Positions 16,780 to 43,144 of a stretch of DNA of 64,000 nt are shown here, in pieces (the first letter of the stretch is position 1; every line of letters starts with the position of its first letter). The position numbers and the translations under genes are program-made. The stretch is from Crambe crambe (Eukaryota; Porifera; Demospongiae; Poecilosclerida; Crambeidae): contig OZ004594.1 in NCBI GenBank assembly GCA_963924555.1, positions 558,001 through 622,000 on the forward strand. The letters run 5' to 3'. Below the pieces are notes generated by a model, which did no database searches, was not told the origin of the DNA, and saw only the letters and a program-made list of their open reading frames with translations.

Positions 16780-18475
16780 ATGACAGAGCAGACCACCAGC
16801 CTCACAGAAGCCTGCTACCTCTGCCATGGAAAAATCCATCTGAATACGCCATCCAAGTGGAGGGTTACAGGTACATATCAAGCCTTGATGTCCCTGAAGA
16901 TGGAGTAATCTGTCAAACCTGCAGAAGGGATATAACAAGGGTAGTACTTGCAGATCCTAGCCATACACCTAGGTGGCTGGTTACTTTTCCAAAAACAAGG
17001 ACATAATTGCATAAATCAGCCTTTATAGTGCCAGAGAGTTAAGGCTATTTCACCTCAAAAATCTGATCATGGCCTTAGAAGCTGATCCAGTAGTCTGGTG
17101 TAGCCGACCCTTTACCTTCCTTTTCTTGGGGGTGGGGGGAAGGAGAAAGGGTCTGGTGACTCTAGCATATACAACTTGTGTCATTTTTGAACATTACATC
17201 ATGGCAATCATAAACCGTGTGCAAGTAATTTGCGTGAAAAGCAGTAGTTAGAGAAAGGAGAATTCTTGGAGAGTCTAAGAAATGGGGATCAAGTGACAAG
17301 AGCCTTGGAGTCACAACAGTGTTTGAATAGTACGTCCCATACACCTAATGCTCGCTCCCCTAGCCTCATAATGCCGTATAAGTCAATTGATCCACCTGCT
17401 GATAACTTCTCATCTCACTTGAAACAGCTAGCTACAGCCACGATCGATCCCATCAAGGGCTTATCGAGTCGATCTTGATCCCATAGAAAAGCAAGGGGCA
17501 GGCTCCAAAAAGTGGTAGAAACAAAAGTTTATGGCTATATCACATGATGAATCCAAGTGTTGTTTTTCATGCGCGACACAAGTCGTTGATGCTAGAGTCA
17601 CCAGACCCTTTCTCCTTCCCCCGCCCCCAAGAAAAGGAAGGTAAAGGGTTGGCTACATCAGACTACTGATCCAGAGCTAGGCAAGCTCACACCATCAGAG
17701 CTACCCCATGTTCTTCAGACACTGTTGGTATGTACTGGCTGTGATTATGTGTCCTTTTTCAGTGGGATAGGTAAAGCCACTTTTCTGCTTCCTTATTACT
17801 AGAAGTACTGCTTCAGGAACCTTTATTTTATAACTTTAGTGTCCAAAATGGGCACAAGGCGAACCAACTAGCCACTGGCTAATACTAAAGCTGCCTAAGG
17901 GTTACCCTTAAACTGGAAGTCAGGCTATTTTGGAATTCCTACAATTAGTGGGTACGGTGTACTTCAAAAGGTTTTATTACACAATGTCCGGCCACCCACT
18001 ACTCTATGTTCAATAACCTGGGATTGTCGGTGGAAGAACAGCATCATAAATGGCTTGATGACATCCGTGGTTCAGAACAAAATTTGAAAATGGGATGACA
18101 GCCTCCAATGAAGCACTGGAAGAGATCCTGCTGGGTTCTGCACCTGTGGGGACAATACTTCAGTCACTATCATAAATATTACAGATGGTCCATAAAGAAT
18201 AACTCACTCGCTGTAGTGTGAGACACTAATGAAAACATCAAGACCATCAGGAATAGACTTGAGAGTTTGATAAGAGGTTACAGGTGTGCGAACCAATTGT
18301 AGAAAGAAGGCGAACTCTTGCTCAGCTGGATATGAATGCAGAAACTGCTGCAACACCACAGAGAGAGATCATGATGTTGATATTATGGACTTCGTTTTTT
18401 AAGATGAAATTGACTTTGAAAGTGAGGATGATAGATGGATTTATTGTAGCTCTATTATTATTATCATTCTGTAAT
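16780..18475 (+). pseudogene. Decayed transposon-derived gene: CxxC motif, PIN/XPG-like segment, C-terminal Cys-rich motif
   Basis: Scattered in-frame fragments separated by stops and frame changes. The start reads MTEQTTSLTEACYLCHGKI and continues, in another frame, with VPEDGVICQTCRRDITR, giving two CxxC pairs. Downstream of an inserted element, 17.68-17.78 kb reads LPHVLQTLLVCTGCDYVSFF then SGIGKATFL. This resembles the GCDY...GxGK turn of XPG/FEN-type nuclease domains seen in large repeated animal ORFs. Near 18.28-18.47 kb one frame reads TNCRKKANSCSAGYECRNC, a CXC-type cysteine array, then DRWIYCSS. The architecture recalls Academ-like DNA transposons, which encode an XPG-type nuclease and a cysteine-rich terminus. 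That family name is inference. Clearly broken and not functional. Confidence 0.6.
17091..17665. mobile_element. 575-bp non-autonomous inverted-repeat element with 9-bp target duplication
   Basis: The left end reads TAGTCTGGTGTAGCCGACCC and the right end, reverse-complemented, TAGTCTGATGTAGCCAACCC. Terminal inverted repeats run about 85 bp and include CTTGGGGGYGGGGGRAGG. The element is flanked on both sides by CTGATCCAG (17082-17090 and 17666-17674), a perfect 9-bp target-site duplication. It lies inside the relic gene, and removing it restores continuity of the flanks. No coding capacity is evident. The same termini bound the larger RecQ-bearing element at 36316-43034. Confidence 0.9.
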
Positions 18476-36049: not shown

Positions 36050-36643
36050 CTTGACCTAGGCAGCAAAAGAGTGGGAGTGGCTCGCTGTGCGCTATAATGG
36101 TTACGTCATCATTATGCGCGCGCGCCGCGCCCCTAGCTATTTCTTTCTAGATACGAACGATTAGCTTCCCTCCTGGCAAACAAATGGGACAACCCCTATA
36201 GGCCAGCAATGTCCTGGCTGAACTGCCGCCTCATGTTTTCCCTACTCAGATCAGCAATTCGGTGCATCCGAGGTTCTTCTCCAGGACATCCTATTATAAC
36301 TTCTGAGGCTGAACTTAGTCTCGCGTAGCCAGACCCAATTCTTTCTTTTTTCTTGGGGGCGGGGGAAAGAAAGGGTCTGGTCAACTCCCGTAGAGCGTTT
36401 TGTTCTGAGTGCACCCAAATTCCGGTGCGCGCTAATTGACCACCACTTAGTTAGCGGTAAGGTGATAACCGCCGTGGTTACCATGAATCTTATTAAAGTC
36501 CATTGCATTAGCTTGTGCAAAAGTGATCTGAGTTATTTAGGAAAAACTGCATGCATGGAATAACAGGAGCCAGGTAAGAAATGATATCATCACAGTTAGC
36601 TAGCTAACTAACTAATCCTTGCAGCTTTAAGGCTGAGCTGAAT

Positions 36644-36860
36644 GTGCTGTTTAACAAGTTGGGTTTGTGGAAACTGCAGACTGTGATGCTAGAAGCAACA
36701 AAGATGCAATGTCTCACTCTGAGTAGTAAACTAAAAGCCAAAAGAAAGTGGCTATCCCAAGCTAATGCTTCTAGCAGCCTTAAAAGAACTGTATCGCAAC
36801 AACCAGTGGAATCAGAGAGCACTAATAAGAGCACTAATAAACATTCTCCTCCTGTTCATG
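36644..36860 (+). other. Short open stretch inside the RecQ element
   Basis: A plausible exon follows an acceptor TTGCAG near 36623: FKAELNVLFNKLGLWKLQTV and about 50 more residues, basic in the middle (KLKAKRKW), ending at a possible GTAAG donor at 36859. It could be the remnant of a second element-encoded protein running convergent to the helicase. Not recognised. Confidence 0.3.
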
Positions 36861-36991
36861 TAAGTCTTATTGTTATTCTTGTGCATCACACTGACTATTT
36901 ACTTTAACAGGTAAATATTGACTACCATTCAGGACAAAAGAATACACCTTGGAGGAAAAGAACCATCAAAAGAGTTGCACAAAGGAGCTAG

Positions 36992-37461
36992 CTACAAGGA
37001 GCTACGATTTCTTAGGAGAGACTCTGGGTTAACGAACAGAAGCTGCTTCCCTTGCAACACATTTCTAATTGTTTCAGGGTCATCTTGGGCTTCACCAATG
37101 AAGTCTGTAACAATTCCTTTTGGGGAAAACTTGGCCTTTTGATCGATCATTATAGCTGTCAGAGGACTGATGCACACGACAATACTGCCTATAGTATAGC
37201 ACATAAATTGAAGGGGACAGCTAGCTATAAGTGTGTATGGAAATTGTTCTTACCGTTCAGCTTATCGAAGAGAATAGGTAGGACTCCATATATAATAGAT
37301 TTACCATACCCGGTTGGCAGAGATACAAAAGTATCTTTACAAGACACTAATGCCCAATGGCTTCTTTTTGCTTCAGCTTCAATGCATGCAGAAATGGTAT
37401 CTTCTAAGGCCTGTGTCAGTGTAACTGAAGGAACATCAGGAGCAACAGAAGGATCAGCCAT
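36992..37461 (-). pseudogene. Truncated RecQ-like DNA helicase (N-terminal motor motifs only)
   Basis: Exon 1 (37461 to about 37262) starts MADPSVAPDVPSV and carries the Walker A motif in LPTGYGKSIIYGVLPILFD. A donor follows at DKLNG. Exon 2 (about 37195-36992) encodes IVVCISPLTAIMIDQ (helicase motif Ia) and LLFVNPESLLRNRS, then stops. The DEAH box, the second RecA-like domain and any RQC or HRDC domain are missing, so this is a deleted copy and cannot be an active helicase. It starts just inside the element's right terminal repeat, which suggests the element's own promoter is in the repeat. Confidence 0.75.
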
Positions 37462-37883
37462 GATAAAATGCAAAACAGACTTTAATAAGATTCATAGTAG
37501 AGTGAGACACCAATTATCAGACACCACCTATAATCGGACGCCGTATTCCAGTTTATAAAGCTCCCCCAAATATAATTTAAGTACATAAAAATAGTAGTTT
37601 GAGTGTCTAAAAATTATTCCCCAAAAGAGTAGCTATGCTTCAAAATTACCGTTGCAACAGTTGATTGTTTCACAGTCCGAAATACATCGATTCTCGCATG
37701 CTTACCTCAATGTTCGAGCGCTTAACAAAAACCTTGCTTTCTAGTAATTCAAGGCATAAATTATCCCACAAATGATTAGGTTTGTGCCATAGCTATCACG
37801 TTAGAGAGAGAAAAAGTTTCTGACCTTTTCAATAAACTGCTGGCATTCTCATGATCAAAGAATATACGGACGGCCGATCTTAC

Positions 37884-37891
37884 GCATGCGC
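37884..37891. promoter_or_regulatory. GCATGCGC motif in the pogo 5' region
   Basis: The same octamer found at host promoters in this window, here just inside the left terminal repeat and about 700 bp before the transposase ATG. It may be the transposon's promoter element, with an intron in the 5' untranslated region. Confidence 0.35.
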
Positions 37892-38284
37892 GCATAATCA
37901 ATTGTCGATCGATCCGACGGAGAAGGACTGAAGAGTGTTGTAGAGCTGCTTAACTGCCTGCTGGTGCTGCTGGTGACCAGGTTTGTTTTGTAGGTAGTGC
38001 ATGTGCTTCATTTACAACTAGCTAGCTATAGAGCTATAGATCTAGTTGCCTGTTGCAGAGCCAATTCGCAAAATCAGTCTAAGCTTAAGCTTATCTGCAC
38101 TGAGATTCTTCCCTTTTGGAATGATCACATAATTATTCCCCTATTAATATAGCTATGCCATTCTAAGGCCTTAGATTTCAGTATTTAAATCATACCAACA
38201 AAAATAAGTAAAATACTGAAGAATCGGAGCCATGAGCTAGCTATTTCATTATAATTTCATGTTTGAGCATTATGTCCTGAGGTG

Positions 38285-38470
38285 TGCAATACAGCAGATT
38301 GCAGTGATCTTGCAACATGAAATCCAGAACAGCAAAACCAAAATTTACATAGCCTCCTTTCAAATGACTTTGGAGTTGGGCTACTTGAAAGGAGGCTATG
38401 TAAATTTTGGTTTTGCAGTTTTGGATTTCCTGTTGCAAGATTACTGCAATCTGCTGTATGCACCTGTTGA
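38285..38470. repeat. Hairpin (inverted repeat) inside the pogo 5' region
   Basis: CAGCAGATTGCAGTGATCTT through to TAGCCTCCTTTCAA is followed, after about 20 bases, by its near-perfect reverse complement (TTGAAAGGAGGCTATGTAAA to GCAATCTGCTGTATG). The arms are about 75 bp. It could be a tiny foldback insertion or a structured leader of the transposase transcript. Confidence 0.85.
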
Positions 38471-38587
38471 ATGATCAGAGCTATCATGTTTATACAGGGA
38501 GGAGCTAAACTACTACTAATTTAATATGGCTCCAAAGACTATAACCATACACTTCCTATATAATGTCAACTTTTGTATTCTTAGAGA

Positions 38588-41500
38588 ATGTGGCCTAATC
38601 TTCCCTTAAAAGAGCGTATTTTCAAGTCTTCTGGTGCGAAACATTCTTACACATGTACCTCCACCGAAAGACCAACTAAATATAAGACTTACAGTTGTGA
38701 AAAACTTCAAAGAGCACTTCATGCAGTAGCATCCAGTGATATAAGTGTTCGTCGTGCAGCTGAGGAATACGGGATTCCAAGATCTACACTCTGGGATCAT
38801 GCCTCTGGTCGTGTAACTGGCTTACGTAGCGGTCCACCGACCTACTTAACAGAAGAAGAAGAGAGGGAACTGGAGATGTTTCTTGTTGGATGTGCAAAGG
38901 TTGGTTTCCCACGGTCACGTCAAGATGTAATGGAAATTGTGAGTAACAAGCTTGGTCATCAAGTGTCGAATGGTTGGTGGGACAATTTTTGTAGGAGACA
39001 CCCCAATCTAACTTTGAGAGTTGGTGCTCCACTCTCCAAGGCCAGGGCCATGGCTGCAGATCCAGGATCACTTCGTGAATATTTTGATGTTCTTGAAGAT
39101 ACACTCACAAAAAATAATTTGATGGATAAACCAAATTTAATTTTTAATATGGACGAATCAGGCTTTCCACTAAGTCCTAAAGCAATTAAAGGAATCTACA
39201 GCTGCGATGAGAGACATCCTGTTACAGTTACCTCTGGAGACAAGACTCAAATAACTGTTGTTGCCTGTGTTAGTGCTGCAGGTTATTGTATTCCCCCTAT
39301 GATCATTTGGGACAGGAAGAACCTTGCCCATGATTTAACAATAGGAGAAGTACCAGGTACTGTGTATGGACTTTCTATGAAAGGATGGATCGACCAAGGC
39401 TTGTTTAACGAGTGGTTTATAAAGCATTTCTTGAAGTATGCACCAAGTACACGACCTTTACTTCTTATATTTGATGGCCATTCGTCGCACTATTGCCCTG
39501 AAACTATAAGTTTAGCAGCAAAGCAAGAGGTCTTGCTATTCACACTACCTCCGAATACAACCAATCTTACGCAGCCATTGGACAAGGGATGTTTTGGTCC
39601 CTTAAAAGCAGCCTGGAGAAAAGCATGCCACCAGTTTATAATGGCACACCCAGGACAAGTCGTCACACGGTACAATTTTGCTACACTTTTTAATGAAGCT
39701 TGGATGAACTCGATGTCAGTAAAAAATATTACTGCTGGCTTCAAAACGACTGGTATAGTGCCGTTCAATCCAAGTGCTCTCGAATTAGTATCAGAATCAC
39801 AAGAGCCAACACTGACCACGTCTTCAAATCTTGCCTATATACCATTTTATAGTCCATGCCATAAATGTGCACAAAGACGTCCTTTCCTGGATTCGTATTC
39901 AGCCAATGAGGATGATGGTTTAGAAGGTTCGATTATGATGCCCGAGTTTGAAGAGAAAGAAGGAAGTGCTAGTGTTGAGAATATTGTGGTATTAGCTGAA
40001 AGATCAAAAAGTTTCATGAATCTCCAGGTCCCTTCTCCAATTTATAAAACTAAAATGCATCAGCCAAAGAAATCCAGTCGGGTTTTGACCAGTGAAGAAA
40101 ATTTAAGGCTATTAAAGGAAAAGGAAAAAAAGAAGACAGAAGAAGCTGAGAAAAAGAGAAAGAAGAAGGAAGAACAAGATAAGAAAAGGGAAGAAAATGC
40201 AAAGAAAAAGAAGAAGAAAGAAGAGGATGCAAAGAAAAAAGATCAGACAGAAAAGGAGGCAGATGCAATTGTTCGAAGCAAATTAGATTGTCCAGATTTT
40301 ACTGAGGAAGAGCTCATTTTGTTCAAGCAGCGGTATGACAATGGTTATGACTTGCTACATGATGAAAGATACAATTTGTGGGTGAAACTGAAAATTATAG
40401 AAGATACCAGTACAGGCAAGTTCAATTAGAGAGCTTTACTCATGTTTCATGTGACTACTAACACAGCTGCAGGGTTTTATTTAACCTGTTTTGATAAGGT
40501 CTAGACTACACCATGGATAGTGTCATAATTGTCATTTCTCACCCTTTTTTTGTGTAGCTAGAGCTATATATCTAACTAGTGATGTTACTATACAGGACAA
40601 CCAACAAAGAACTCGAGCCAAAAGGAACAATTACAATTAAAGGAGCAGAGGAAGCTTGGACGTGAACTAAAGGCAGTGGAGAGAAAAAAGAAAAATATAG
40701 CTGGCAAAACTAGGGAAAGTGTAGCACCTGCAGTGACTTGTAAGTGGCTTGAAGCTATACTATAATCATTGCACTCTATAATTTGACTAACATAGCTCCT
40801 GGGCATGTGTTCACTGAACTAGAATTAGCTCTATTTGAGAGTCGATTTGAAGAGGGGTACGATATCAATACTGATACTCGTTACAATGCCTGGTTAAGTA
40901 AGTGCAAAAATATTTTTAAAATTTCATAATTATCTTTTCACTATTCAGAAGTCAGAACCGATCAGCGTGAAAGTATGCAACCTGTTTACTCCAAATATAT
41001 AATATAATACTGTATGATTCATTTTTCCCAGAAACATTTCTGGAGTCTACATTTACAAGCAGCACACCAGCCCCCCCTACTACCCAACCCCTTGGTCGTG
41101 GTAAGCGTGTGATGATGAGGGGAGCTGGATCTCTCAGTGACAAAGGCAAGAGTCTAATCTACATACTTGTAATTTCAGTCTGTACGTAATTCTCTGATTC
41201 TAAATAGTACCCCCTGCCAAACCCCGTGGAAGTCGTGGTACCCAAAACAGAGAGATTGATGGATCAGTCACAGAGGAAGAAGATAAAGAAGAAGCAGCAA
41301 TCGGTAACCAGTCACACACTTTTAAATGATTACGTTTATTTTTACTTTTCACTTTAGTACCCCCCTCTGGCCATGGTAAGCGTGTGACAAGGAGAGCTGC
41401 ATCTCTCAAAGGTAAAATAAAAAGTATGTGTAAAGGCAAGAGTTGTCTAAATAGTAGTGCCCCCATGTAGGTCATGGTGCACAAAGCAAAGAGACCAATC

Positions 41501-42061
41501 CCAAATCCTCAGCTGGCCGTGGCAAGTGTATGAGGGGAGCTGCATCTCTCAAAGGTAAGGCAAAATCTGATCTACACTTGTAATTCTCAGTACAACTTTA
41601 AATAGTGCCCCCTGCCAAACCCCATGGAGGTCATGGTACCCAAATCAGAGAGACTAATCTATTAGTCACAGAGGGAGAGGATGAAGAAGAAGCAGCAATT
41701 GGTAAGCAGTTACACACTTGTGTGAGTGTGAAAAATGGCCCCCCCCCCTCCCTCCCTATAGTCATGGTAAGCATGTGGTAATGAGGGGAGCTGCACCTCT
41801 CAATCTATGTTATGCACTTCTAAATAGTGCCCCCTACTAAAACTTGTGGAAGTCAAGTTAATTGGTAGTGGTCCTTTTTCTGTAGGAAGTGATATCGAGA
41901 TTACAGTCAGCAGCAAGTGCTCTGAAAGAAAGTGTGCCCACCCTAGAGCAAGAACATGGGTGCAATGTGGATTATGCAGTAGATGGTGGCACTGCATGTG
42001 TACAAAACTTACAAGAGCTAAGGCTCAAGAATGCAACTTTATTTGTTCTGTTTGTAGCTAG
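38588..42061 (+). CDS. pogo/jerky-type transposase, multi-exon, with repeated C-terminal cassettes and a PHD finger
   Basis: The main exon (38588 to about 40416; unspliced it runs to a stop at 40429, 613 codons) encodes a psq-type helix-turn-helix (about 35-75, with VRRAAEEYGIPRSTLWDH). A CENP-B-like second DNA-binding region and a DDE_1 catalytic core follow: NMDESGF, LLIFDGHSSHY and TQPLDKGCFGPLK supply the three acidic residues. After a Lys/Glu coiled coil comes FTEEELILFKQRYDNGYDLL. A GC-AG donor (ACAGGCAAGT) then allows splicing to 40595, and further exons continue in phase 1. They encode a second copy of the small domain (FTELELALFESRFEEGYDIN), basic cassettes (PLGRGKRVMMRG, GHGKRVTRR, GRGKCMRG) alternating with acidic VPPAKPxG...EEAAI cassettes, and a PHD finger (about 41886-42061; CSERKC, WVQCGLC, WHCMC, CNFICSVC). 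The core is intact. The extension is read by eye. Confidence 0.85.
41030..41830 (+). repeat. Tandem exon duplications in the transposase 3' part
   Basis: Two exon types recur. One contains TGCCAAACCCC(G/A)TGGAG and TCACAGAGG(A/G) and ends GAAGAAGCAGCAAT (41209-41303 and 41609-41702). The other contains GG(C/T)(C/A)(G/A)TGG(T/C)AAG and GCTGCATCTCTCAAAG (about 41090, 41360, 41510, and a decayed copy at 41760). Surrounding intron sequence is also similar, so whole exon-intron units were copied. Confidence 0.85.
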
Positions 42062-42871
42062 CCGAGTATATTTCAATCTATATATTATTTGCTCTGATAC
42101 TGTCAAGCCTGTTTGTGAATTGCCTGTGTTTACCCTGATTGTGCTGTGTATGCCCCATGTTTACCTGCATATACCCATCTGTTTAGCTCCAAAAATTGCA
42201 TAGGATACTGGAAGTGTATGTTTTACTGTGTAAACTCGCCACCAGTATACTAGGTCCTAAATCAAGCCTTACCTCAGTAAAAAAAATAATTTTGGACCAC
42301 TGAATAAGAGCCTCAAGAGTACTAATGCTACTCGAAATCCGTGACCCAGTACAGAGGTCTCGACCTCCACCCCCGTGCTTAGGAGCCAAAGGGGAAGTGG
42401 TAGTGGTACTGTGTACAGGAGCTTGTGCCAAGGCAAAGTAGCCAACTCACCATGCACAACATGCCTTATGTTACGTCTTCTTGATAATCGTAATACAAAT
42501 TCGGATGTCCGACTACGTAAGAACTAATTGAGTGCTACTGGGAAGGTCAAAGTTGTTTTTCTCACTGTAAAGTGATTAAAAATAATGTAGTGTAATGTTT
42601 TCTCACATTATTTGTGACAAGGATACTAGGAAGCAAGATTTTCGTTAGGCGTTCGAACATCAAGGTATGCGTACGAAAATAGATTTATTTCGGACTCTCT
42701 ACAATTGGCTACTGCGACGGTAGTTCTGAAGCATAGCTACTCATTTTAGGAAGAAATATTAGACACTCCTACTACTATAATTTCATACTTCAACCATATT
42801 CAGTGGAGTTGTATGGACTAAAATACGGCGTCCGATTATAGGTGGCGTCTGATAATTGGTGTGTCACTCTA

Positions 42872-43033
42872 ACCACGGCGGTTATCGCCTTACCGCTAAC
42901 TAAGTGGTGGTCAATTAGCGCGCACCGGAATTTGGGTGCACTCAGAACAAAACGCTCTACGGGAGTTGACCAGACCCTTTCTTTCCCCCGCCCCCAAGAA
43001 AAAGGAAAGAATTGGGTCTGGCTACGCGAGACT
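42872..43033. repeat. Right terminal inverted repeat of the RecQ-bearing element (outer part)
   Basis: It is the reverse complement of 36317-36488 with only a few mismatches. It contains CCACGGCGGTTATCGCCTTA, GGTGGTCAATTAGCGCGCAC and the CCAGACCC...GGGTCTGG sub-terminal palindrome. Confidence 0.95.
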
Positions 43034-43144
43034 AGGCTGAACTCTCTGTCTCCACAGCCACCCTTGAGTTTTGCTTTTTGCTCTTTGCTTCATTTTACTT
43101 TATTTGCGCCTTTACACATGTCACCCTGTGTTTATTTCTTTCAC

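Follow-up and report, generated by a model that had tools for sequence, protein, structure and literature searches.

Why should a cut-and-paste DNA transposon carry a RecQ-type helicase? The question is raised by a locus in the window, the 64-kb stretch of DNA analysed here within a 143-Mb assembly (G000:C17:558001-622000), where a helicase fragment lies between inverted termini that are flanked by a perfect 9-bp duplication. The account that we hold to be very probably correct is that of a non-autonomous, internally deleted member of the AcademH type of cut-and-paste transposons, which would have been mobilised in trans and was later split by a pogo-type insertion. As a member the locus is ordinary and non-autonomous; the transposon lineage is known but has seldom been described, and placing the locus there means that its RecQ sequence is no longer stray cargo.

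The outer element and its helicase remnant

The termini of the element lie at 36316 and 43034 and start TAGTCTCGCGTAGCC. The original prediction had described them as inverted, with perfect 9-bp flanks, and both claims are borne out: the two 165-nt arms (36316-36480 and 42870-43034) show 99% complementarity, and GGCTGAACT is found at both sides (Table 1). The terminal repeat, put at ~195 bp, is indeed an inverted repeat, but its length is closer to 187 bp and its right copy is split by a nested element, across which the repeat continues. The interval 36307..43043 is thus not the single element that had been proposed, since 5.37 kb of it belongs to the nested pogo-type element; the outer element comprises 1.35 kb (36316-37499 plus 42870-43034), with 187-bp terminal repeats and a helicase remnant.

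Table 1. Features of the outer element, the nested element and a related element in the window (positions are those of the window)
Feature	Position	Strand	Basis or remark
Related terminal-repeat family element, 575 bp (TAGTCTGGTGTAGCC), duplication CTGATCCAG	17091..17665	.	Relative, outside the outer element
Left target-site duplication, 9 bp GGCTGAACT	36307..36315	.	Flank comparison
Left terminal inverted repeat, ~187 bp	36316..36502	+	Other copies match 36316-36500/36502 at both ends
Stop-to-stop frame, left end	36608..36907	+	No Pfam match above the cut-off
RecQ-type helicase remnant, exon 2 (SPLTAIMIDQ, NPESLL), ends in stop	36992..37192	-	Frames, Pfam DEAD
RecQ-type helicase remnant, exon 1 (ATG, Walker A LPTGYGKS)	37250..37461	-	Frames, Pfam DEAD
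Right terminal repeat, inner 22 bp	37478..37499	-	Includes one of the two TA copies (37498-37499) that the pogo insertion produced
Nested pogo-type element, 5,370 bp, target TA	37500..42869	.	Imperfect ~249-bp terminal inverted repeats GAGTGAGACACC
HTH_psq + DDE_1 transposase frame, 614 codons	38585..40429	+	Pfam match
Right terminal repeat, outer 165 bp	42870..43034	-	Begins with second TA copy
Right target-site duplication, 9 bp GGCTGAACT	43035..43043	.	Flank comparison

The RecQ-type helicase fragment is also real. It occupies two exons on the minus strand, with borders set by eye from splice signals, and the joined exons match Pfam DEAD at E 6.1e-9; taken singly, the exon frames gave no Pfam match at E 0.001. 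The 165-bp terminal repeat has at least 42 matches in the genome (40 of 306 first-look candidates scored), and the helicase segment is kept in eight copies, the window copy included. In L035, L040, L046, L047 and L048 the end of this segment, at 37499 in the window, is joined directly to the outer terminal repeat, and L037 and L044 have the same junction in rearranged or truncated form. L047 and L044 carry other insertions within the segment, and L048 retains only 46 bp of its second terminal repeat. In copies of ~0.6-0.9 kb the internal segment is reduced to its edges, with lower identity; in some, these take in the start of helicase exon 1.

Could the truncated helicase have been retained as a functional protein, for example as a repressor of transposition, the role of the KP protein of the P element? 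Its persistence in eight copies would suit such a role, as would the shared frame of the window copy and L035 across both exons, but six of the seven other copies, with L035 as the only exception, have at least one indel inside the exons that is not a multiple of three relative to the window. L040 has lost 11 nt at the Walker A motif and 10 nt at the start, and the indels of L046 are of the same sizes. An 11-nt stretch common to three copies is absent from the window, and either state may be original. We consider retention for a function very unlikely. Because the frame varies among copies, a relic of internal deletion, rather than a conserved product, is the best reading of the fragment, and the best explanation of the window copy is that it keeps both ends and the first two exons of the helicase and makes no working protein.

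Terminal repeats, duplications and hairpins

A genome count of the terminal motif TAGTCTNGNGTAGCC gave 596 sites, and a reversed control gave none; positions were taken for the first 100 of these sites. A perfect 9-bp duplication flanks 28 of 36 terminus pairs, a sample that consists of fetched copies, leaves out L048, L050, L052 and L054, in which the second terminus could not be placed, and omits many unfetched genome sites with the motif. The remaining eight pairs comprise L035, which has 8 bp, and seven with neither 9 nor 8 bp (L037, L041, L045, L049, L058, L062 and L063), one terminus being truncated in each of L037 and L041. The flanks of the copy at L049:292-910 are inverted, not direct, repeats (AGTTCCAAC / GTTGGAACT).

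Two longer terminus pairs were rejected as elements. The 7.8-kb pair of L058 was considered as an autonomous element and has no duplication at its ends; by eye, its frames appear to be those of a retrotransposon and another gene. The 34-kb pair C6:7165053/7199325 dissolves into two loci, in that the first terminus pairs with a truncated one at a distance of 1.2 kb (L037) and the second with one at 0.8 kb, the latter pair having a perfect duplication of its own (L038). The related 575-bp element elsewhere in the window shares its duplication and near-identical adjoining flanks with L055, on another contig, so the two are not independent, and a larger repeated stretch seems to contain the window element.

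At the small end of the size range, tiny hairpins of 57-112 bp still carry the shared 21-base termini. Eight of these (L061, L064, L077, L078, L079, L080, L081 and L082) have perfect 9-bp duplications, and two others examined (L062 and L063) do not. The 74-bp copies L080 and L081 have one and the same sequence but sit at different sites within different 9-bp duplications, which suggests that such hairpins may move as units.

These copies bear on a proposal about the G-rich part of the termini. The terminal repeat does hold the predicted palindrome CCAGACCC/GGGTCTGG and the run GGGGGCGGGGG, which by eye sits between the arms of the hairpin, and it had been suggested that this run might give a G-quadruplex on which the helicase could act. 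G-quadruplexes can be unwound by RecQ enzymes, and the G-run pattern is present in 29 of the 36 terminus pairs, so that a requirement for it in transposition would have some appeal; however, the pattern is absent from L063, from the 5,681-bp relative L059 and from five tiny copies (L061, 83 bp; L078, 73 bp; L080 and L081, 74 bp; L082, 57 bp), and all of these except L063 have perfect 9-bp duplications. Given these six G-run-free copies, the run was unnecessary for those insertions, unless it was lost afterwards. A G-run-free 33-base terminus has 20 occurrences in the genome. The suggested G-quadruplex link is not upheld, and a requirement for it strikes us as highly improbable.

What, then, might a helicase do at these ends? 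One speculative idea, to which we assign a low but not negligible probability, is that it is active in transposition by resolving the subterminal hairpins rather than a G-quadruplex, with a hairpin of 57-83 bp as the minimal mobile unit. If true, this would offer a compact system in which to test what a DNA transposon needs a RecQ enzyme of its own for. The hairpin copies provide very short natural substrates for probing the role of the helicase.

Fuller relatives, a partner gene and the AcademH lineage

The original prediction held that the window copy is deleted, that a fuller relative should exist elsewhere, and that searching the genome with the terminal repeat and the helicase fragment could find full-length elements between paired termini, with the complete helicase and any transposase. 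A fuller relative does exist. Outside the copies of its own segment, the best match of the window remnant by E-value is C9:4430682-4431041, at 49% identity, and an exact 21-base terminus lies 223 bp ahead of it. The element so delimited, L076 (C9:4430459-4433908), is 3,450 bp long with a perfect 9-bp duplication ATATTGATC; its termini are 88-91% identical to those of the window over 90 columns, and it contains DEAD and Helicase_C frames on the plus strand and a frame of a second gene, DUF6589, on the minus strand. Over 107 columns, the helicase of L076 and the window remnant share 46% identity. The helicase frames of L076 are broken, so that it is at most a candidate autonomous element; the window copy is a deletion derivative.

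The same design recurs in L059, a 5,681-bp element with the 9-bp duplication CCAGCACAC, RecQ on the plus strand and DUF6589 on the minus strand; on the left it has a terminus of the related TAGTCTGGCGTAGCC type, and on the right the terminus is reduced to an outer TAGTCTGG and an inner 37-nt repeat. L057 has the same RecQ and DUF6589 pair, and a search for element ends around it found none. Because of the gene layout in L059 and L076, the stop-to-stop frame at the left end of the window element, which gave no Pfam match above the cut-off, could by its position perhaps be a remnant of the first exon of the DUF6589 gene.

Might RecQ nevertheless be chance cargo, captured by an unrelated element with terminal inverted repeats? 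In many copies that share these termini, little or nothing of the helicase segment is left, and such helicase-free termini had been named in advance as a sign of chance co-location. They do exist, but as abridged derivatives, in many of which the borders of the internal segment survive, and the linkage is not fortuitous because L076 unites these termini and a 9-bp duplication with RecQ frames and DUF6589. The pairing of RecQ with DUF6589, moreover, recurs across the genome, and we regard chance capture as extremely improbable.

How regular is this pairing? DUF6589 has at least 110 genome matches, which form 80 clusters by start coordinate, and RecQ at least 106 in 70 clusters, in which ordinary host RecQ genes may be included. 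A RecQ match lies within 6 kb in 40 of the 80 DUF6589 clusters, and in 32 of the 35 clusters built from the 36 best DUF6589 matches, although several of the paired loci are recent copies of each other and hence not independent; when 80 and 70 clusters were placed uniformly at random in 1000 trials, such pairs averaged 0.7 and never exceeded 4. Wherever orientation was read, the two genes are convergent. A universal pairing is disfavoured, because the other 40 clusters have no RecQ match within 6 kb. The design of L076 and L059, together with the recurrent pairing, makes the helicase a regular gene of the transposon group.

The repeated pairing also supports DUF6589 as the likely transposase of the lineage, and suggests that it serves as the transposase of these elements. 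In an alignment of DUF6589 relatives (113 sequences), the acid is conserved in the motifs GGDQL (29/30) and EDWH (26/29), counted where a letter is present, and in DLHMEH the D is found in 101/101 and the E in 101/104 sequences; any of these acidic residues may be catalytic. A divergent member, L083, keeps the three D residues of these motifs and has M in place of the E of DLHMEH. The DUF6589 profile had no solved-structure match among PDB sequences. Its database relatives include records named Amphimedon queenslandica and Ephydatia muelleri; in the paper library used, neither DUF6589 nor RecQ together with Amphimedon gave a paper, and the DUF6589 link may already have been published outside it or with a different name for the protein. 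The frame at L083:1633-6699 exceeds 1,600 codons and joins DUF6589 to a long C-terminal part that looks nuclease-like by eye; the suspicion of an XPG-like nuclease there had no Pfam or PDB support. L083 possibly belongs to another Academ-type lineage.

These features place the group among known transposons. AcademH is a lineage of the Academ superfamily (Kojima 2020, as cited in PMC10045372 and PMC10799480), and the relevant passage of PMC10045372 gives duplications of 9 or 10 bp for AcademH and of 3 or 4 bp for AcademX, tied to the encoded helicase or nuclease; the corresponding part of PMC10799480 lists DEAD and Helicase_C among the domains from AcademH, KolobokH or Helitron. The notion of RecQ as unusual cargo accordingly does not stand, a helicase being named as the enzyme of AcademH in PMC10045372 and of KolobokH in a passage of PMC9587614. 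Set against the description of AcademH in these citing papers rather than against reference sequences, the group agrees in combining a DEAD and Helicase_C helicase and a putative transposase with terminal inverted repeats and 9-bp duplications. The helicase gene lies inside the element in L076 and L059 and survives as a remnant in the window, the duplications are perfect at 9 bp in the majority of pairs counted above, and the partner gene, which may or may not encode an Academ-type DDE transposase, is DUF6589 with its conserved acidic residues. The window copy differs from AcademH as described in being non-autonomous, with a truncated helicase whose frame varies among copies. KolobokH, likewise a DNA transposon with a RecQ helicase, fits less well: the passage in PMC9587614 gives TTAA-specific 4-bp duplications for Kolobok and reports KolobokH from fungi only, whereas the duplications here are 9 bp long and varied in sequence. 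The pertinent parts of PMC4522978 and PMC8290104 hold nothing decisive on membership.

The course of events that we envisage for the AcademH-type element is as follows. The DUF6589 protein, as the putative transposase, would recognise the terminal TAGTCT..GTAGCC and the subterminal repeat, excise the element and insert it with a 9-bp stagger. The RecQ protein would help in processing the DNA, presumably by unwinding ends or hairpins. The window copy would have been mobilised in trans by such proteins. A pogo-type element later inserted at a TA in the right terminal repeat and inflated the length to 6.7 kb, and the apparent strangeness of the span is due to this nested element.

The nested pogo-type element

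In a comparison with 26 stretches (L031-L056), only the window copy has the sequence 37500-42869 between the helicase segment and the outer repeat. This sequence has its own inverted repeats, which are imperfect (80 and 82%), and TA flanks it at both sides. Because other copies lack it, and because of its inverted repeats and TA flanks, it is a pogo-type element that entered the right terminal repeat at a TA. Its HTH_psq and DDE_1 transposase is of a type that we take to be the pogo group of Tc1/mariner, with which it also shares the TA target duplication; the outer element, with a duplication of 9 bp and not TA, is unlike that group. The transposase has four other full-length copies in the genome, at 99-100% protein identity and without stops, and these near-identical copies, together with the open frame in the window, suggest recent pogo-type activity. 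The ends of these four copies were sought in eight short stretches, two of which showed an end: in L066 a TA lies directly 3' of the copy (CACTC followed by TA), and in L068 directly 5' of it (TA followed by GAGTGAG).

That the 6.7-kb span is instead one transposon, with the DDE_1/pogo transposase as its enzyme and RecQ as an accessory gene, would account for both genes lying between the same 9-bp duplications but has next to no probability, given that seven copies of the helicase segment reach the outer repeat without pogo sequence between, that pogo copies elsewhere have TA at the 5' end (one) or the 3' end (another), and that the pogo element has inverted repeats of its own. A reading in which the helicase fragment forms a small element of its own, with a 22-bp repeat and a TA target, was also discarded: other copies show these 22 bp to be the innermost part of the longer repeat.

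A Cys-rich C-terminal piece of the pogo element gave no Pfam match. Inside the element, at 38284-38463, lies a near-perfect palindrome of ~170 bp, of which a 170-bp copy with 100% identity is found on another contig (L056:1513-1682), and its 3' part holds degenerate direct repeats at 41070-41802.
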